A stretch of DNA of 41,341 nt, taken from the IMG/VR virus record IMGVR_UViG_3300034012_000426, positions 1-41,341 of that record; one strand, 5' to 3'. Of this stretch, positions 29,566-41,341 are shown piece by piece; the stretch's first letter is position 1, and each line of letters opens with the position of its first letter. Source of the DNA: a virus. The notes beneath the pieces were generated by a model. It was not told the origin of the DNA. It searched no databases and saw nothing but the letters and a program-made list of their open reading frames with translations. Position numbers and translations under genes: made by a program.

Positions 29566-32500
29566 TTAAACGCCCTTGCCAAATCCGACTGCACTCCACA
29601 GGAAGTTCCTGTCAACTGCGGTGCCACTACTGTTCCTGAAGGTGACATCAAAGCCTGTGCTGGTCACGTTGGTGACGTTGAAGTAGTCACCTGTTGCAAG
29701 GTTCTGGGCCACAATGCCGACGCTGGGCAGGTAAGCATTGATGCCGCCGAGGCTGGCAGTGCCGGTAAAGAACGCTTTGTCAAACGTGATGGACTTGGTG
29801 CCTGCCGTACTGGCGACCGCTCCAACCGATTGCTCTGTCCTGCGCTGGAACGTTGCCTCATAGCCCAGTTCATCAATCAAGATGTTCTCTGCTGGGTCAT
29901 TGCTAGTCAGCTCTGCCTTGAACTGGAAGCCACGGCCAAGGAAAGTGCCATTGACGAACTCCTGCCAGCTTGTCCAGGTTGGCGTGCCGCTTGGGTTGTC
30001 GCTGGTACGCCGCAGGTACAGCTTGCTATTGACCGAATCGACCACACCGCCGTCCCAATCAGACCAGTCATCAACCAAGCCATTACGACTGTCGATCAGG
30101 TCGCTAGGGAAAAATCCGCGAGTGACAAAGAACCTAGTCAGGTCAACCGAATACGAAGCGCCGAGGTCCAAGGTTGCATTGAACTCATAAGTGCCTGTCC
30201 CAACCGTGTCACCGATGAAGTCCATCACCGGCAGCAGGTCAAAATCCACCACGTCATCAATCTCCTCATCCCCGTCAAGGGTGAGGGCGTCATAGTCCTC
30301 GTTGTAGAACACGTCCGTCTTGTTGCCCTGGAATGGCGGCACATCCGCATCCTCACGCCTTGACTGCACCAGCAGCCGTCCAAGCGCATCAGGAAAGTCA
30401 ACGATGACACTGGTTTCTGCTGCAGACTGTCGGCCGCCGTCATCCTCAAACTTGACCAGGATCTCACCCTCGACCAGCGGCACAATTGCTTCCGTGTTGT
30501 GGCCTGCGATCGCAGGGATCAGGTCAACGCTGTTGCTCCATGTGCCAGTGCCATTCGTAAGGTTGGTGTGCCTGATGTGAACACGGCCAGCCACCTTCAC
30601 GTCTAGATCAACCGTTGCATCCCACCGCAGGCGGGCGCTGTTAGCGCTAATGGCCTCAATCGTCAAGTTTTGCACGTTGCCGGGAGATGCCGTCTTGCCG
30701 ATCAGCGCAAACTGTGCCGTTGCGGTGGAGCTGATCCGTCCGGTAAGGCCAATGCTGACGATTTGGACGTACAGCGTCCCAGCACGCAACCCAGTCAGCC
30801 GGATCGACGGTGATGTCGTCTCCAGTTGCCGCCAATTGTCATTGTCAATTTTGTACTGCAACCGATAGTTGACCGCCTTGATGGCGCGGTTGGCAACAAT
30901 CCTGACGGTTGGCTCAATCCAGCTCAGCTCAAAAGCAGTAAGCACGTTGGAGCCGTCAACGTACAGGTGCTCAGTGCCATCAATGCTGCTCGGCGGATCA
31001 GGTGCAGGTTCAACGATTGGTTCCTGCGGGATGGTGTTCGGATCGGTCAGGCCGCCATCGCCTACGTCACGGAACGACAGCTTTAGGTCCGATTCAATCG
31101 CGGCATAGATGCTGGCGTTATATGACAGCGCCGTGATGCCGTAGATGCCATCTTCACCCTCGGCAACCGTGATGACACGGAACTGCTGCGTCTGCGTGCC
31201 GGTGCTTTGGATAATCCAAATGCTCTGCGGATTAGGAGATTCGCTAAATGCACTGCTGACCGTGACCACGCTGCCCGCTAAACCGCTGATGCTGCGCGTT
31301 TCGACCAAGCCCGTAGGCAGCAGCACGCTGATGGTTGGGCTTCCTCCCAAGGTGGGAGCAGAATCAAGAGTTACGGTCGTCGTCGTTGCTGCGCTGATCC
31401 TGCCGCCCTGCCTGCTACCAGCCTTCATCGGGTCGGCAATGTCAATCACCATTCCAGGCCGCAGGACGATGCCACTATCAAGCGACACCGAAAATGTGAC
31501 GGTCTCAGTCAGGTTCTGCTCTGAGAGCAACGCCCACTTGCCCAAGCGGTGCGCCTGACCCTGCGAGTAGCAGCCAATGGCCTTGATGTCCTTATTGATG
31601 ATGCCGTATTTAGCAACCGCATCTGCCAGCTCGACATATTCATAAGTGACCTCACCAAGCTGCTGGTAGGTCTGGTATGCAACCGTTGCGGTGGTGTGCC
31701 GTGCCTTCTGTGCGCTGCCGCTGTAGCTGAACAGCCCATCAACGACATTGGCAGGTGTCAACAGGTACTGCGGATCTGCAGGCTTGTCCTGCAACACCAC
31801 CATCGACCCGGCGCCGTAGTAGGCAATGCCACGAAACAGGGCGACGAACTCTTGGATGACGTTGTAGACCTCATCACGGCTGTTGATCAGCATGTTGCAA
31901 CTGAACCGTGGCTCCTGACCGCCGCGTCCGTTGCTGACAAGCGTGTTGCAGTATTGGCTGATGGCGAAAAAGTCGTAACGGTCAAGGCTGCTGGTTGGAA
32001 TGCCTGCGCCGTAGCGCGTACTGGTCATCAAGTCCCACAAGCACCAAGCTGGGTCTGCGCACCATGTAGCAGCGCCAAACGTGCCGTCCCAGACGCCTGA
32101 GTAGGTAACGCGCCCTGGGTAGGTCGTCGTATCAACGGTGGCGTTGCTGGGTAGCTGCACCTTGATGCCACGCACCAGATACTTACGGGCTGGCACCGTG
32201 TCAAACTGCCGCGAGTCAAACCGCAAGAAAGTCAGTGCGCTGTTGGGATAACGCAGCTTTTCGTCAATGATCTCGGTGTAGCTGCTGAAGTAAGTGCGGT
32301 TTTGCCTGCGGGCGCTGGTCTCATCAGCACTGTTGCGGACAACGCGGATATCAACAGGGAACGCACCCGATAGGCTGACTATATAGTCACGCTGATAGCT
32401 ATTGGTGGTCTTGCCGCTGATGGTGTCATCAAATAGCTTGGTAAAGCCGCCACCGTTGTATTGGATGTAAACGCCAATGCTGACGCTATGGCCGATGATG

Positions 32501-33378
32501 TCGCCGTCGTCTTCAATGATCTGCAGTGCTGGTAGCTGCACCGTGACGCGCACACGGTCAACATCAGTATCCGTGACGGTACGGGTTACAGATGCAGCAT
32601 TTGTGACCTCAACGTTGACGGTCTTTTCAGACTGCGTGCCTTCGGTGTTAGGGATGTATGCCTGATTCTGCGTTCCGTTGCGGGTGACAACGGTGTAGCC
32701 AGTGAAGTTATCAATGCCGCTGCTGCTTTGAATCGGTGTGCCGTCCAGGTAGATGCCCTTAACGCCGTTCTCAATGCCTTGGATTTCGCCTTCGCTGATC
32801 AGGTCAAGAACACTGCCGTATTGGACCGATTGCAGCGAGTCATCGGCCTCCGTTGGTACATGCGTCGTGCCACCACCACCTTTGCCACCGCCACCGCCAC
32901 CACCCCCTGCACCAGCGATCGTGGCACCAAGGCCAGCGTTGTGGACGCGAATGTTGCCCGCAATGAAGGTGTGCTGGCCTTCAACGGTCAGGTTGTAAAC
33001 CGTGCCAGGCTCTAGCGATTGCTTGGCGATGATGGGCCGCAGGTGCCCTAAGCCGTCAATCAGGCAGTCATCAGGCCCCAGCGTGTCAATGCAAACAAAC
33101 GCATTGAACTGGTTGAGTACCCAGTGATTAGGCGTTGCATCAAGGTGTTTGCCACCCCAGTAGCTGTAACGGGTAATCGGTTCGCTGTCGTGGACATGCA
33201 GCTTGAGGATCTTGGCAGGCAGGATCTGCCCTTGATCGTCAAAGCTCAGAACGATGTCACCGGGCTTCAGCTCATCAATGCGGCACTGCCCGCCAGGGAT
33301 ATCGACAAGCGTGTATCCAGGGAAGCAGCCGCCGCCACCACCGCCACCGCCACCACCAGCACCTTGGATCTGTGTCAT
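29566..33378 (-). CDS. Lambda J-like tail tip/host specificity protein with Hint domain
   Basis: 1270 residues. After MTQIQGA and ten glycines a Hint domain occupies residues 18-147. Next come another Gly run and the J body: 'DSLQSVQYGSVLDLISEGEI', 'TYFSSYTEIIDEKLRYPNSA', 'YSGVWDGTFGAATWCADPAW', 'CLWDLMTSTRYGAGIPTSSL', which match lambda gpJ tail-tip hub domains. Fibronectin type III-like domains lie around 810-990 ('LQYKIDNDNWRQLE', 'LRAGTLYVQIVSIGLTGRIS'). The C-terminal 270 residues are a beta-rich, likely host-binding end. J closes the tail tip and determines host range. The start overlaps the gene I homologue. Confidence 0.93.
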   Translation of the reverse strand: MTQIQGAGGGGGGGGGGCFPGYTLVDIPGGQCRIDELKPGDIVLSFDDQGQILPAKILKLHVHDSEPITRYSYWGGKHLDATPNHWVLNQFNAFVCIDTLGPDDCLIDGLGHLRPIIAKQSLEPGTVYNLTVEGQHTFIAGNIRVHNAGLGATIAGAGGGGGGGGKGGGGTTHVPTEADDSLQSVQYGSVLDLISEGEIQGIENGVKGIYLDGTPIQSSSGIDNFTGYTVVTRNGTQNQAYIPNTEGTQSEKTVNVEVTNAASVTRTVTDTDVDRVRVTVQLPALQIIEDDGDIIGHSVSIGVYIQYNGGGFTKLFDDTISGKTTNSYQRDYIVSLSGAFPVDIRVVRNSADETSARRQNRTYFSSYTEIIDEKLRYPNSALTFLRFDSRQFDTVPARKYLVRGIKVQLPSNATVDTTTYPGRVTYSGVWDGTFGAATWCADPAWCLWDLMTSTRYGAGIPTSSLDRYDFFAISQYCNTLVSNGRGGQEPRFSCNMLINSRDEVYNVIQEFVALFRGIAYYGAGSMVVLQDKPADPQYLLTPANVVDGLFSYSGSAQKARHTTATVAYQTYQQLGEVTYEYVELADAVAKYGIINKDIKAIGCYSQGQAHRLGKWALLSEQNLTETVTFSVSLDSGIVLRPGMVIDIADPMKAGSRQGGRISAATTTTVTLDSAPTLGGSPTISVLLPTGLVETRSISGLAGSVVTVSSAFSESPNPQSIWIIQSTGTQTQQFRVITVAEGEDGIYGITALSYNASIYAAIESDLKLSFRDVGDGGLTDPNTIPQEPIVEPAPDPPSSIDGTEHLYVDGSNVLTAFELSWIEPTVRIVANRAIKAVNYRLQYKIDNDNWRQLETTSPSIRLTGLRAGTLYVQIVSIGLTGRISSTATAQFALIGKTASPGNVQNLTIEAISANSARLRWDATVDLDVKVAGRVHIRHTNLTNGTGTWSNSVDLIPAIAGHNTEAIVPLVEGEILVKFEDDGGRQSAAETSVIVDFPDALGRLLVQSRREDADVPPFQGNKTDVFYNEDYDALTLDGDEEIDDVVDFDLLPVMDFIGDTVGTGTYEFNATLDLGASYSVDLTRFFVTRGFFPSDLIDSRNGLVDDWSDWDGGVVDSVNSKLYLRRTSDNPSGTPTWTSWQEFVNGTFLGRGFQFKAELTSNDPAENILIDELGYEATFQRRTEQSVGAVASTAGTKSITFDKAFFTGTASLGGINAYLPSVGIVAQNLATGDYFNVTNVTSTGFDVTFRNSSGTAVDRNFLWSAVGFGKGV
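32938..33327 (-). other. Intein-like Hint (BIL-type) domain inside the J-like protein
   Basis: Residues 18-147 of the J-like protein. The N-terminal Cys18 in 'CFPGYTLVDIPGGQCRIDEL' followed by 'KPGDIVLSFDDQG' is intein block A; 'HLDATPNHWVLNQFNAFV' is block B with the TxxH motif; 'VYNLTVEGQHTFIAGNIRVH' plus Asn147 is blocks F and G. The next residue is Ala, not Cys, Ser or Thr, so the classical splicing nucleophile is missing. That fits bacterial intein-like domains, which cleave or splice by other routes. There is no homing endonuclease insert. The domain is bounded on both sides by glycine runs. Confidence 0.88.
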
Positions 33379-35609: not shown

Positions 35610-35953
35610 TAGGGCTCAAACACTTGCTGAAATGTGGCACTGATGGTCGCCCGGCCTGCGTACGTTATGGACTTGCTCCATGATGGACAAATCCATTTGT
35701 ATGCTGTCACCTCATCAGGCGGCGTCCAGTCAAAGGAAGCGCTATCAGCAGCGCGAGCATCAAGGAAGGTTTCAATAGTATCCGCATTAGCTTCGCTGAT
35801 GTTGTTCCATGTCAAGGACCACTCCTTAGGGTTTTGGTTCAGGCCGTAGGTCAGCCGCTGCTGGTAGCCGTCGCCAAACTGCACGGTGCGCACGGTTGGA
35901 GCGCTGCGCTTTTCGGCGCCGTAGCTTGCCGTGATCGCAGGGAAAGTAGCCAT
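35609..35953 (-). CDS. Lambda M-like minor tail protein
   Basis: 114 residues. 'FPAITASYGAEKRSAPTVRT' then 'VQFGDGYQQRLTYGLNQNPK', 'EWSLTWNNISEANADTIETF' and 'FDWTPPDEVTAYKWICPSW' match the gpM/phage minor tail family closely. The protein forms a ring joining the tape measure/tube end to the tail tip. One-base stop/start overlaps occur at both ends. Confidence 0.92.
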   Translation of the reverse strand: MATFPAITASYGAEKRSAPTVRTVQFGDGYQQRLTYGLNQNPKEWSLTWNNISEANADTIETFLDARAADSASFDWTPPDEVTAYKWICPSWSKSITYAGRATISATFQQVFEP

Positions 35954-38046
35954 CAGCGTGTATTAGCGAGCAAGCCGCCGGGACGTTGCATCTTGACGAT
36001 CTCAGCCTGCACTGCAGCACCGATGATCCTACCCATCTGATTGGAATTTGGCTCGTTGCCTTCCACGCTGGTGCCGCTTGCGTCTACGTTGACTACCACA
36101 TTAACGCCGCCACCAAAGCTGCCGGTTGGTGCAATGCCGCCGCTGCGGCCTGGCATGAACAGTTCAGGACCGCGCTCGCCAACGAGGTAGCCCTTGCCGC
36201 CCATCACGGTGCCGCCGTTGGCTCTAGCGCCACCAAAGAAATTGCCGACGCCGCTTAGACCAGGAACGATTGATGCCATGCCGAAAGCGCCGGGGTTGAA
36301 GCTGGCGCCTGATGCAAAGCCACCGCGATTGCCGCCAAACAAACCGCTAATTGCATTGATGGCTTTTTGGATGACAAATACCTGCAGGAGTTGGTTGGCA
36401 ATGTCGATCAACACGCCAGATGCAATCTGCCGCAGGCTGCTATTGAAATCTTGGCTGCCTTGAATCAATGCGTTAAAGGCAGATGTCATGCCTTGGCCAA
36501 CCGTATTGCTAATCCCGTCAGCCAGTGCCTGCTGTCGTTTTTGTTCTTCAGTTAGCTGCTTGGAGTATTCCAGCACTGAGGCATAGCCAGATGCTGCGGT
36601 TGTCAGTTTGGTGATGTATTCAGGCAGCGTTTCCTTGTTGCGCTGATCTTCAATCGTGCGCAGCCGCTCTGCATATTGCACCACTGCTTCAAAGATTGCC
36701 GCCTTGCGTTCATTAGGCCCCATCTCCTGCTGACTGGCCTGTAGGATTGCAAGCTGCTTATTATAGTAAGCCTCTTGCTGCTCGTTCTGGGTGCGCTGGG
36801 CAATACCAAGCCGCAACCGCAACTCAAGCTCTTGCGCTGTGATGTCTTTGATTTCTTTAGCTTGCTTGTCAGCAGACTTGCCGCCACCACCCTTTGCGGC
36901 GCCGCCTGTGCCAGCACCTAATGGCGGAGCGGTAAATAATTTATCAGTTTGTTTTGCACCTGCCTGCAGTTGCTTTTGAGCCGCAAGATTCTGATTTATC
37001 TTTTGCAAAATTGTGCCCTGTAGCTGAACAGCGCGATTTGCATTTGGATCATTAGGGCCAACGCTTTGCAGCAGGCGCTGATATTGCTGCAATGCTTGCA
37101 GGTTCTGCTGAATGCCTGTTTTATTTTTCTGAGATCCAACCTGATCAACACCTTTGGCGATATTGTCGACTGCTTGCGATGTGGCGCCGATATTCAAAAA
37201 CTGACGGGCGCCTGCAACGCTCCTCGTAAAGCCGCCCCCCCTGCCGGCAGACAATGCAGCATTGATCGCATCAACAACTGCGATCGCTTGATTGAAAATG
37301 GCCTTTAGCGCTGGGGTAAGCGCTGTGCCAATCCGTCGAGCTAGCGCATCGACGCCATCTTGCAAGGTGCTGAGTTTGCCATTTAGCGTATCGCTTTGCG
37401 CAATAGCGCCATTGGCGTATTTGCCGCCGGCACTGGTCAGCCGCTGCAGTGCTACCTCAACAGCCTTAGCGCTGATCTGACCTTTACTTAGAGCCTTTTG
37501 GAACTCCTCGCCGGTCATCCCATACATCTTGCGCAGCTCTTCCTGCAGCGCGATGCCACGCTCTTGGAACTGCAGCAGCTCTTCGCCTTGCAGCCTGCCC
37601 TTGGCTTGGACCTGACCGTAGGCGGTCACCAGGCCCTGCAGCTCAGCACCAGTTGCACCTGATGCGTCGGCCAGCCTGCGGGTGGTTTCTACAACATTGT
37701 TGGCCTGCACGCCAAAAGCCTGCAGACGCTTGGCTGCATCAATCAGTTCAGTGCTGGTAAATGGCGTTACCGCACCAAGCTGCTGCAGCTCTTGAATGAT
37801 TTGCTTTGCTTGCTGTGCGCTACCGGTAAGCACCTGCAGGCTGCGGGTTTGTGATTCAAGTTCTGCCGTCTTGGCAAATACAAACTTGGCAGCAGTGACA
37901 GCCGTAAATGCGCCAAGCAGGCCAGTTACAGCATCCTTTAAACCACTGACGCCGGCCTGTGCTGCTTTAGATGCTGCGCCAACCTGCTGAAGATTCCTTA
38001 CAGCACTCTGGCTGTTTACCTGAATATCAACAACCGAAACGGCCAC
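35953..38046 (-). CDS. Tail tape measure protein
   Basis: 697 residues, GTG start at 38046 with GGGAGG seven bases upstream. N-terminal tape-measure domain: 'VDIQVNSQSAVRNLQQVGAA', 'LESQTRSLQVLTGSAQQAKQ', 'LGAVTPFTSTELIDAAKRLQ', 'LADASGATGAELQGLVTAYG'. The middle is coiled coil and Gln-rich helix; the C-terminal part ends in Gly-rich 'ISGLFGGNRGGFASGASFNP' and 'GGTVMGGKGYLVGERGPELF'. By the rough rule of 0.15 nm per residue the tail would be about 100 nm long. Gene order after the chaperone G/GT is standard. Confidence 0.95.
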   Translation of the reverse strand: MAVSVVDIQVNSQSAVRNLQQVGAASKAAQAGVSGLKDAVTGLLGAFTAVTAAKFVFAKTAELESQTRSLQVLTGSAQQAKQIIQELQQLGAVTPFTSTELIDAAKRLQAFGVQANNVVETTRRLADASGATGAELQGLVTAYGQVQAKGRLQGEELLQFQERGIALQEELRKMYGMTGEEFQKALSKGQISAKAVEVALQRLTSAGGKYANGAIAQSDTLNGKLSTLQDGVDALARRIGTALTPALKAIFNQAIAVVDAINAALSAGRGGGFTRSVAGARQFLNIGATSQAVDNIAKGVDQVGSQKNKTGIQQNLQALQQYQRLLQSVGPNDPNANRAVQLQGTILQKINQNLAAQKQLQAGAKQTDKLFTAPPLGAGTGGAAKGGGGKSADKQAKEIKDITAQELELRLRLGIAQRTQNEQQEAYYNKQLAILQASQQEMGPNERKAAIFEAVVQYAERLRTIEDQRNKETLPEYITKLTTAASGYASVLEYSKQLTEEQKRQQALADGISNTVGQGMTSAFNALIQGSQDFNSSLRQIASGVLIDIANQLLQVFVIQKAINAISGLFGGNRGGFASGASFNPGAFGMASIVPGLSGVGNFFGGARANGGTVMGGKGYLVGERGPELFMPGRSGGIAPTGSFGGGVNVVVNVDASGTSVEGNEPNSNQMGRIIGAAVQAEIVKMQRPGGLLANTR

Positions 38047-38071: not shown

Positions 38072-38598
38072 CTACCGCCGCCGGGCCTTATCCATTTCCG
38101 CTTTTTCGCGTCTGCCCTTGACCTCATAGTATGCGGCAAAGTGCGTAAATTCTGCATCGGTTAGCTCGGTACGCAAACGGCTAACCGTCATGCCTAGCTC
38201 AGTTGCGAGGAAGAACTCGAAGAACAACCACGAGTCTTCCTCTAGTCTTTTTTTGCCTCTTCAAATCCTGCGCCATCACCAAGGCCGAACAAGAACAGCT
38301 CTAGGTCGTTCAGGACGCGCTCAGGCAGCTCGCGTTGCAGCTTGGCCGCATCAGCCGGTGCAAACGCTTTGGTGCCGTTTTCAAGCTCAGCAATCTGACA
38401 TAGCAGCTGCGTGCTAACGTCTAGCGCTTCATCAGTGCCGGTCAATGCAGATGCTTTTTTGCGGTCAGCGCGGGTGATGGGCTTGAAATAAAGCACCATC
38501 ACCACGTCGCCAGCATCTGTCTTCACTTCAAACTTGCGCCTTTGATTGAGGTCAAAGGCTCCGGTGAGCAGGTCAACCGGACGTTGGGCGGCAGGCAT
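38072..38598 (-). CDS. Tail assembly chaperone GT, -1 frameshift product
   Basis: A -1 slip at the A-run 38254-38248 (0-frame GCA AAA AAA GAC TAG) joins the G protein to 'RLEEDSWLFFEFFLATELG' and on to 'KAEMDKARRR', ending at 38072, 175 residues in total. The extension has the T-domain pattern 'FF.AT.LGMTVSRLRTELT' and 'DAEFTHFAAYYEVKGRREK'. A spacer of GACTA and a 12-base-pair hairpin (38242-38207) follow the slippery site. G and GT chaperones bring tape measure and tube protein together during tail assembly. Confidence 0.88.
38207..38254 (-). promoter_or_regulatory. -1 frameshift signal of the tail chaperone (slippery run and hairpin)
   Basis: Seven A residues (38254-38248), read GCA AAA AAA GAC in the zero frame, are followed after five bases by a hairpin: GAGGAAGA/TCTTCCTC and CTCG/CGAG, twelve base pairs with one bulged base and an eleven-base loop (38242-38207). 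The zero-frame stop TAG lies at the foot of the stem. Confidence 0.85.
38242..38598 (-). CDS. Tail assembly chaperone G (zero-frame product)
   Basis: 118 residues. 'RPVDLLTGAFDLNQRRKFEV' opens a beta-rich segment ('VVMVLYFKPITRADRKKASA') and a helical end ('ADAAKLQRELPERVLNDLEL', 'FLFGLGDGAGFEEAKKD'). It lies between the tail tube genes and tape measure and carries a slippery run just before its stop, both classical for the G/GT system. It is made in excess over the frameshifted form. The ATG overlaps the upstream stop. Confidence 0.9.
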   Translation of the reverse strand: MPAAQRPVDLLTGAFDLNQRRKFEVKTDAGDVVMVLYFKPITRADRKKASALTGTDEALDVSTQLLCQIAELENGTKAFAPADAAKLQRELPERVLNDLELFLFGLGDGAGFEEAKKD

Positions 38599-39017
38599 TA
38601 GATGCTAAGGGTCAGTGCCCCGGAGGTAACGAAATTAACCGAGACAATCTCGATTTCGCCCACAGTAGCGGAATACTCGGAACCTGTCACCACCAGCGTG
38701 CCGGTGATCTTTTTGCCGCCGGTTTCATCGAGGTACAGCTCAAACGCTGCATCAGCTTCATCGGTGGCTTGATTGACATCCTTGATCAGGTCCAGCTTGT
38801 CGCCAGAACCTGGAGCGTCATACATCAGCTCAATGGTGCCAGAACCGCTGATCAAGCCACCCACGTTGGCACGGTAGGTGTCGCCGTGATCGGTCACGTC
38901 AAGCGATTCCTTCTCGACGGTCATGGTCCAAGACCGGACCGCAGCAATCTCAGACAAGCCGCCTGCACCAGCTTTGTCAAAGAAGACAGTGCCCTGTTGC
39001 CCGCGATAAAAAGCCAT
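38598..39017 (-). CDS. Major tail tube protein, copy 2
   Basis: 139 residues. 'MAFYRGQQGTVFFDKAGAGG', 'RSWTMTVEKESLDVTDHGDT', 'YRANVGGLISGSGTIELMYD', 'EYSATVGEIEIVSVNFVTSG': a beta-sandwich tube protein. It is about 62 percent identical (86 of 138 aligned residues by eye) to the copy immediately upstream, so the gene was duplicated in tandem. The glycine-rich loop 'NVGGLISGSGT' is the same in both. One or both copies form the tail tube; a mixed tube or a specialised copy are possible. Confidence 0.85.
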   Translation of the reverse strand: MAFYRGQQGTVFFDKAGAGGLSEIAAVRSWTMTVEKESLDVTDHGDTYRANVGGLISGSGTIELMYDAPGSGDKLDLIKDVNQATDEADAAFELYLDETGGKKITGTLVVTGSEYSATVGEIEIVSVNFVTSGALTLSI

Positions 39018-39019
39018 GA

Positions 39020-39436
39020 TCAGATGTCCAGGGTAATGGCGCCGTTGGTAACGAAGTTGACCGTGATCACTTCGATTTCGCCAACGGTAGCCGAGTATTC
39101 GGCAGATGTGATGACACCGTCAAAGCTGACCTTTTTAGTGCCGTTTGTATCAAGGAACAGCTCAAACAGGGCTGCGCCTTCGTCGGTGGCCGTGTTGACA
39201 TGCTCGATAAAAGCGTTCGTCTCATCAGCGCTGCTGGCCGTGTAAAGCACCTCGACGGTGCCGCTGCCGCTGATCAGGCCGCCGACATTAGCGCGATAAG
39301 TGGCGCCTAGCGCGGTGGTGTCGAGTGATTCCTTCTCAACGGTCAGAGACCATGAGCGGGTGCTGGCAATGGTGACGCCAGTAGCGCCGCCGTCGTCAAA
39401 CTTGACGCTGCCTTGCTGCCCTCGGTAAAAAGCCAT
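39020..39436 (-). CDS. Major tail tube protein, copy 1
   Basis: 138 residues. Same architecture as the downstream copy: 'MAFYRGQQGSVKFDDGGATG', 'RSWSLTVEKESLDTTALGAT', 'YRANVGGLISGSGTVEVLYT', 'EYSATVGEIEVITVNFVTNG'. Only two bases separate the two genes, and the most variable part is the loop near residues 65-85. It follows the tail terminator gene, the expected place for the tube protein in siphophages. Confidence 0.85.
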   Translation of the reverse strand: MAFYRGQQGSVKFDDGGATGVTIASTRSWSLTVEKESLDTTALGATYRANVGGLISGSGTVEVLYTASSADETNAFIEHVNTATDEGAALFELFLDTNGTKKVSFDGVITSAEYSATVGEIEVITVNFVTNGAITLDI

Positions 39437-39438
39437 GG

Positions 39439-40077
39439 CTAGAGATCCTCGAAGGTTTCAAAGGTCATTCTGACCTGTGCTTGGAAGTAACCCTCAGGAG
39501 CTGGCGCAGCCACCACCTCTGGGCCAGTGGGCGGGTCAAAATGGACGCCGCTGATTACTTGTCTATTGTAAAGGTCTCTGATGCGTTTACCAATTGTGTA
39601 GTTAGCGCCAGGGCCAACGCCCTTAGCGGTAAAGATATTGACCACGATGGCGCCAATGACGCTGTTGCTGCTGCCAGTGGTGCCGCCCATGGTCAGGTAG
39701 TTGTTGTTGCCAAAGCTGACCAGGCACTGCACCCATGAGCTACCGGGCGTTGGGATGTACGGCTGGTTGTGGAAGACAACCGGCAAGGTGCTGCCCAGCG
39801 AGCTAACCACTGTAACATTTCCGCTGGTTGTCAACGCACCGGCAGCAGTCACGGTAAAAGAGTTGGTTGCTGTGGTGACCACAGTGAACGTGCCGTCAAC
39901 GCCGCCGCCAGATGTGTAGTCCAACGTCAGCGATTGGCCGACGTAGTAACCGTGCGCAGTGGCGTTGATCGTAACGACAGTGCCGGTTTGAGTGTATGTC
40001 GTCGTGAGGCTGGTCAGCTCAGCCGTTAATCGTGCCTCAATGGTGGCGCGAACGGTGTTTAGGTTTACAGCTGCCAT
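39439..40077 (-). CDS. Tail terminator-like protein with inserted beta-sandwich domain
   Basis: 212 residues; ATG overlaps the previous stop (TAATG) and has GGGAGG eight bases upstream. The outer parts, 'NLNTVRATIEARLTAELTSL' and 'FHNQPYIPTPGSSWVQCLVS' to 'KRIRDLYNRQV' and 'PAPEGYFQAQVRMTFETFED', form a gpU/DUF4128-type tail terminator. Residues about 27-92 ('VVTINATAHGYYVGQSLTLD', 'FTVVTTATNSFTVTAAG') are an inserted beta domain of a type widely found on phage tails. The terminator caps the tube; the insert would project outward. Confidence 0.8.
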   Translation of the reverse strand: MAAVNLNTVRATIEARLTAELTSLTTTYTQTGTVVTINATAHGYYVGQSLTLDYTSGGGVDGTFTVVTTATNSFTVTAAGALTTSGNVTVVSSLGSTLPVVFHNQPYIPTPGSSWVQCLVSFGNNNYLTMGGTTGSSNSVIGAIVVNIFTAKGVGPGANYTIGKRIRDLYNRQVISGVHFDPPTGPEVVAAPAPEGYFQAQVRMTFETFEDL

Positions 40078-41111: not shown

Positions 41112-41341
41112 TCAGCTCCGGCGGATGGAAACGTTGCCTGGTCCACTGATTCTAAGCCCTATCAGGTAACGCTCCATCAACGGCGGCACCTTATCCGCGC
41201 CAACGGCGCCATAACCAAGGTTAGGCGTCACGTCAAGGCTACCGATCTTGACGTTCTTGTAATCTTCAAGCCCGCTCAGTCCTAATGCGCTGGTGTTGTT
41301 GTGCAGGAATACCGCCAGCACGGCCTGTGCGTACTTGATCT
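41112..41341 (-). CDS. Head-tail connector, C-terminal part in the right-hand repeat copy
   Basis: This is the 3' end of the connector gene that starts at 539 and crosses the circular junction. The stop is at 41112; the segment 41137-41341 duplicates 1-205. The residues 'LSGLEDYKNVKIGSLDVTPN' and 'ERYLIGLRISGPGNVSIRRS' complete the protein. The single base difference between copies is silent. Confidence 0.8.
   Translation of the reverse strand, partial: IKYAQAVLAVFLHNNTSALGLSGLEDYKNVKIGSLDVTPNLGYGAVGADKVPPLMERYLIGLRISGPGNVSIRRS
41137..41341. repeat. Terminal direct repeat, right copy
   Basis: Matches 1-205 at 204 of 205 positions (difference at 41214). See the left copy. The unit genome is therefore about 41,136 bases. 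Confidence 0.95.

Follow-up and report, generated by a model that had tools for sequence, protein, structure and literature searches.

Two adjoining tail tube genes in a probable cyanophage and its relatives, possibly encoding the two subunits of one heteromeric tail tube

The usual description of a long phage tail is a stack of identical hexamers; the few exceptions have fused double-domain tube proteins (T5, phiCbK and P74-26). The tail tube of R4C, as described in the accessible text of its structure paper, consists of hexameric discs of one tube protein and was solved with C6 symmetry imposed (PMC10276861). Within the R4C ring, strand beta5 pairs with strand beta2 of the neighbouring subunit and salt bridges connect D67, E70 and E103 with R91 and K126, while a long loop enters the next ring, where Met38 occupies a hydrophobic pocket; the R4C terminator likewise inserts the Met of its hairpin tip into the tube (PMC10276861). 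A duplicated tube domain was reported for T5 pb6 and P74-26, and also for phiCbK, the pseudo-hexameric rings being made of two unlike domains (PMC5717097, PMC8718954, PMC10034513), and the domains of P74-26 are only 16% identical (PMC10034513). In SPP1, two forms of the major tail protein, gp17.1 and gp17.1*, occur in one tube at 3:1, both made from one gene, with a frameshifted C-terminal extension in the second form (PMC8718954). A heterohexameric ring of two tube-fold paralogues, Hcp2-Hcp3, was solved from the type VI secretion system of Bacteroides fragilis according to the title of its entry (PDB 9vne), and heterohexameric Hcp is mentioned in PMC13323088. In Microbacterium phage DizzyRudy (cluster EL), gp17 and gp20 are annotated as major tail proteins and are 42% identical over 224 columns; cluster EL and other actinophages were noted for two major tail proteins, with no role given in the accessible text (PMC11080557). 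Paralogous phage tail proteins are therefore not unique to the two-gene cyanophages described below.

The window, which is the whole stretch of 41,341 bases analysed here, carries two adjoining genes on its minus strand in the open reading frame list: gene A at 39020-39436, encoding 138 aa, followed by gene B at 38598-39017, encoding 139 aa. BLASTP aligned the two proteins with 86 of 139 positions identical (62%), 78% positive and one gap (E 4e-59 as a single comparison), a likeness far beyond chance, and only two bases separate the stop of A from the start of B (TGA TC ATG). The original prediction of two adjoining genes of 138 and 139 residues, about 62% identical and two bases apart, agrees with these values. 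It had also named eight identical N-terminal residues and an identical central loop; the loop was found as a 15-residue stretch, TYRANVGGLISGSGT, common to both proteins, and the N-terminal identity was found as well, except that it covers nine residues (MAFYRGQQG). When A was searched against the whole record, no place beyond A and B was matched at E <= 0.001. The terminal segments, 1-205 and 41137-41341, overlap by 205 nt with 204 matches and one mismatch, cutting through a structural operon gene, and because of this overlap the record is probably a complete genome.

The layout of the locus sets it apart from the systems above. The domains of T5 pb6 and P74-26 are fused in one polypeptide, whereas A and B have separate genes. 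Each is a full-length open reading frame with its own start and stop, so they are not frameshift products of the SPP1 type. The Hcp2-Hcp3 ring belongs to a type VI secretion tube and not to a phage tail, and the DizzyRudy paralogues are much larger and lie two genes apart, with gp19 also annotated as a major tail protein. The same two-gene layout with a 2-nt gap is present in Synechococcus phage S-H1 (MK105819; recorded host Synechococcus WH7803; 32532-32948 and 32951-33373), whose A and B are each 67% identical to those of the window. The S-H1 pair was deposited as two hypothetical proteins, whose annotation would gain from a tail tube identity; no account of it, and no description of a tandem tail tube gene pair of this kind, was found in the literature searched, which lay mostly outside subscription journals.

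The assignment of A and B as major tail tube genes, as originally predicted, is borne out by profile matches, solved structures, predicted folds and gene order. Both proteins matched phrog_10528 (major tail protein), A with E 2.9e-22 and B with E 1.2e-19; Pfam Phage_tail_2 matched B below the cut-off and A not at all, and NCBIfam gave no match for either. A family profile searched against the PDB found the R4C tail tube protein (8gtb) as its best solved match, with E 1.1e-8, and the R4C fold is shared by the models of A and B. AlphaFold2 models, with a mean pLDDT of 84 for A and 80 for B, predicted a tube fold in both, comprising a beta-sandwich, one helix and a long beta-hairpin. Foldseek matched both models to the tubes of GTA, R4C, monocin and lambda with TM-scores of only about 0.5, and a VIA fold search with A alone gave Z mostly of 7-8, with an unrelated cellulose synthase (4p00) in the top row; the assignment therefore relies mainly on sequence and gene position. 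The genes upstream of A match head closure, neck and tail terminator proteins, and the last of these (39439-40077, minus strand; phrog_179, E 1.5e-13) directly adjoins A. Downstream of B follow a gpG-like gene (38242-38598, minus strand) whose start codon overlaps the stop of B, the tape measure gene (35953-38046, minus strand; Pfam TMP_3, E 7.7e-23) and genes for lambda M-, L- and J-like tail tip proteins. A and B are thus positioned between tail terminator and tape measure, as expected for tube genes, and both sequences and models support their membership in the siphophage tail tube proteins of the lambda gpV / R4C / TP901-1 superfamily.

The spread of the pair was followed in seven IMG/VR scans, taking the best 80 loci of each, together with S-H1, MED4-184, MED4-117, DSL-LC06, CRP-406 and the window, for a total of 558 loci with a tube gene in which re-fetched contigs count more than once. 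Two adjoining tube genes were found in 434 of the 558 loci examined, a proportion that is not a natural frequency since two-gene phages supplied six of the seven queries, and the 434 include 208 distinct complete nucleotide pairs. In all 434 the A-type gene precedes the B-type gene, the spacing is 2 nt and the two are separate open reading frames; no tube reading frame longer than 200 aa was present in the loci. The junction TGATCATG, which holds the stop of A, 2 nt and the start of B (39015-39022, minus strand, in the window), recurs in 363 of the 434. Among the 124 one-gene loci, 82 are of the M type (MED4-184-like), 20 of the P type and 18 of the X type, which is B-like and about 149 aa long; the other four are two distant outgroups and, at contig edges, two B-type genes. 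Two genes are thus not obligatory in the family: single-gene relatives exist, and one of their lineages is B-like. Since Synechococcus phage S-H1 has the pair and Prochlorococcus phage MED4-184 has one gene, the host of this virus is probably a cyanobacterium. When a single genome from each bacterial or archaeal species was scanned, 28 pattern matches were obtained, none of them a relative. For MED4-117, a second tube gene was considered on the basis of a further match place, but the neighbours of its annotated tube gene are not tube genes. Counting distinct lengths, the tape measure protein has a median of 733 aa in two-gene phages, 769 in M and 724.5 in X, with no clear link to copy number; the P rows, of about 480 aa, may represent another reading frame.

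The duplication is old. Within one genome, A and B differ with a median pS of 0.68 and a minimum of 0.52, and thus show no recent gene conversion; the 62% identity, the high pS and the 208 distinct nucleotide pairs rule out a recent duplication or an assembly artefact. A 54-row tree, from which the outgroup CRP-406 was omitted, recovered A as one clade (99/98) and gave no resolved order among B, P, X and M; P was absent from an earlier tree of 59 rows, in which B and X formed one clade (94/84) and A another (76/85). Judged from these divergences, the A/B duplication is ancient and the split is older than the divergence of the sampled two-gene phages, so that the tandem duplication originally proposed stands as the origin of the pair but dates far back. 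At 25 columns with differing A and B consensus, P resembles A at 18 and B at 3, X resembles B at 10 and A at 2, and M resembles A at 10 and B at 5. B has therefore undergone more change in total, whereas at the hairpin tip it is A that changed.

Both copies appear to be maintained with the same stringency. Across 1218 genome comparisons with dS of 0.1-1 in both genes, representing 153 distinct nucleotide pairs, the median dN/dS is 0.072 for A and 0.075 for B and the median dN ratio of B to A is 1.1; on these rates, A and B are under equal purifying selection. Such values bear on the idea that one copy is no virion protein at all, having become a regulator, a chaperone or a relic. Nothing direct speaks for that idea beyond the single-gene relatives, which show that one copy can suffice, and we consider it very improbable, with both copies full length, predicted to take the tube fold and equally constrained. 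Slightly less remote, though still improbable, is the explanation that A and B are interchangeable in function and retained for dosage or for surface variation that escapes tube-sensing defences. The host defence protein DSR2 does bind a tail tube protein, as seen in the DSR2-tube complex (PDB 8wyb; PMC10973363), which lends the escape version a precedent. However, the class-diagnostic residues are fixed in every pair counted and dN/dS is about 0.07 in both genes, which together point to distinct constrained roles rather than to dosage or diversifying escape.

Translation signals further distinguish the two genes. Among 217 distinct cases, a strong Shine-Dalgarno site (<= -4.5 kcal/mol) stands before A in 212 and before B in one; sites that are at least weak (<= -3 kcal/mol) are present at 82 of the 217 B starts, and the A site is the stronger in 215 of 217. 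In the window, a Shine-Dalgarno-like GAGGA lies before A at 39446-39450 (minus strand), within the end of the tail terminator gene, and the A-to-B junction has no strong site before B. Because strong sites occur before A and almost never before B, B is probably made by termination-reinitiation coupled to A, which is the simplest reading. The missing strong site is not proof of coupling, as single-copy starts of the M type (0 of 79) and P type (0 of 18) have none either, while those of the X type have one in 18 of 18. Furthermore, the site before A also encodes terminator residues, and coding constraint may explain it.

Residues that tell the classes apart were located by per-column counts of A proteins of 134-145 aa and B proteins of 134-160 aa, with edge-cut genes omitted and three L158-type B proteins set apart from 183 ordinary ones. 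Of 20 class-diagnostic columns, 1 falls among the 26 of the hairpin, 0 among the 31 of the C-terminus and 19 among the 81 elsewhere (Fisher p 1.7e-4), although variability within clades is not lower in the hairpin or C-terminus. They cluster at residues 17-26 and 66-79, and another three lie at 88-107, so that the class differences lie in strand beta2, in the pre-helix loop and helix and at the start of beta5, surfaces able to pair within a ring; those at the helix could belong to the outer surface instead. The exception in the hairpin is its tip. In all 186 distinct pairs, including three of the L158 type, the tip is Leu, Met or Phe in A and His or Gln in B. In the window the tip is Leu43 of A (codon at 39308-39310, minus strand) and His44 of B (38886-38888, minus strand), and a profile alignment places both at R4C Met38. 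The same alignment equates R4C D67 with A72/B73, invariably Glu in A (186 of 186) and Asp in B (183 of 183), and R4C R91 with A101, which is Lys in 186 of 186 A and in 182 of 183 B. At A82, the counterpart of R4C E70, the residue is Thr, Ser or Asn in A and mainly Thr or Gln in B; K126 is outside the aligned region. No obvious charge swap between A and B was found at the salt-bridge positions checked. For covariation between A and B, weighting at 90% identity leaves only about 20 effective sequences.

These patterns led us to a model, quite possible though short of probable, in which A and B are the two major subunits of one heteromeric siphophage tube, most likely arranged as alternating A3B3 rings. 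Ribosomes would start at A and re-initiate at B, so that the two proteins are made in matched amounts, and both would enter the same tube as A-B-A-B-A-B hexamers with pseudo-sixfold symmetry. The surfaces that pair within a ring would differ between A and B, whereas the hairpin that links rings, apart from its tip, and the C-terminal strands would be common to both; the tip residue plugging into the next ring would be hydrophobic from A and His or Gln from B. The result would be an unfused, two-gene version of the pseudo-hexameric rings of T5 and P74-26, for which these fused tubes and the Hcp2-Hcp3 heterohexamer are precedents. Alternation of this kind would account for the location of the divergence in the ring-pairing elements, with most of the stacking hairpin common to both proteins, and also for the fixed order, spacing and constraint of both genes. 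A fuller and more tentative version extends it to a widespread cyanophage group having an obligate A3B3 tube, two coupled genes and hydrophobic and His/Gln plugs that alternate round the ring. Of the roles named in the original prediction, namely a mixed tube, a specialised ring or a division of labour at the tail ends, the sequence evidence leans to the mixed tube and does not settle the matter.

The same columns can be read in terms of segregated rings, in which A and B each form homohexamers that are stacked as alternating ring types or as proximal and distal zones. Class differences are found in the helix and beta2 but, the tip excepted, in neither the hairpin nor the C-terminus, and unlike rings could therefore stack on each other; moreover, the L/M/F versus H/Q tip falls at what is the ring-to-ring contact in R4C (PMC10276861). 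The diagnostic columns nevertheless lie mainly in the elements that pair within the R4C ring (PMC10276861), a placement that homohexamers do not require, and no signal was found that would order the rings. We regard such segregation as unlikely.

The tail terminator, which in R4C contacts the tube through its own hairpin tip, was compared in the rows where both terminator and tube tips could be read, two of the three L158-type pairs included. Of the 170 two-gene phages that have a single terminator, 158 have a hydrophobic and in this respect A-like terminator tip, a pattern that would fit equally well with A as the protein of the proximal ring. In single-gene phages the terminator and tube tips agree in class in 38 of 38 M, 5 of 7 X and 0 of 2 P, a match of no statistical weight as only 2 independent pairs exist on the tree over these 47 rows. 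In T4, gp48 and gp54 are tube-like proteins. One copy could accordingly form the bulk shaft and the other only a ring at the terminator or at the tail tip, much as gp48 and gp54 form hexameric rings between baseplate and tube (PMC8718954), and the prevalent A-like terminator tip fits a special proximal ring. The equal constraint, with a dN ratio near unity, and the tight linkage of B to A exceed what a six-copy protein would need, and 319 of the 330 two-gene loci that extend far enough upstream have only one terminator; these points make an end ring doubtful. The other 11 loci, from five contigs, have two adjoining terminator genes (L158:1568-2494; L246:978-1899; also L088, L092 and L245). The paired terminator tips are Leu and His in L158 and L379, as in A and B, Leu and Phe in L378, and both Leu by eye in L366 and L367. 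The terminator of the window, with 212 aa, shows by eye an insert of about 70 residues near its N-terminus relative to relatives of about 140 aa.

The single-gene relatives place bounds on the alternating A3B3 model. Since M, P and X phages have one tube gene each, one tube protein can suffice. The tip in these is His or Gln in 17 of 17 P, Gln in 42 and Met in 4 M, and Phe, Met or Leu in 12 of 12 X. The arrangement in two X-type loci that were read is a terminator gene followed directly by X with a 2-nt spacing. The X lineage is most simply interpreted as having lost A, an indication that a B-type protein may not require A. The X-type phages (L247-L264) thus carry a lone B-like tube gene with an A-like hydrophobic tip, whereas X-like B proteins that are paired with an A have His at the tip in 3 of 3. 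It looks as if the hydrophobic tip compensates for the loss of A, which is suggestive only, as P and M manage with a polar tip. In addition, L158, L245 and L246 combine an S-H1-like A with an X-like B, and tight co-adaptation of A and B is therefore not needed.

If alternating A3B3 rings are formed, the conserved and unfused two-gene tube would represent the intermediate to be expected between homohexameric tubes and fused double-domain tubes, and pseudo-sixfold tubes could arise without gene fusion. The question of how a homo-ring becomes a hetero-ring would then be testable in an isolated cyanophage, S-H1.

Two minor features were observed further along the operon. The gpG-like gene matches phrog_20784, a family of unannotated function, and its putative role as a tail assembly chaperone is based on its position and a slippery run. 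A run of seven A lies just before its stop codon and a T-like reading frame follows in the -1 frame (38072-38270, minus strand), an arrangement resembling that for a programmed -1 frameshift yielding a G-T fusion. The lambda-J-like tail tip protein (29566-33378, minus strand) begins with poly-glycine, followed by a Hint/mini-intein-like module with sub-cut-off Pfam scores, which runs from Cys18 to a His-Asn pair and then Ala at about residue 147. An Ala at +1 is unusual in a splicing intein. After the module comes a second poly-glycine stretch, and J homology begins at residue 163.
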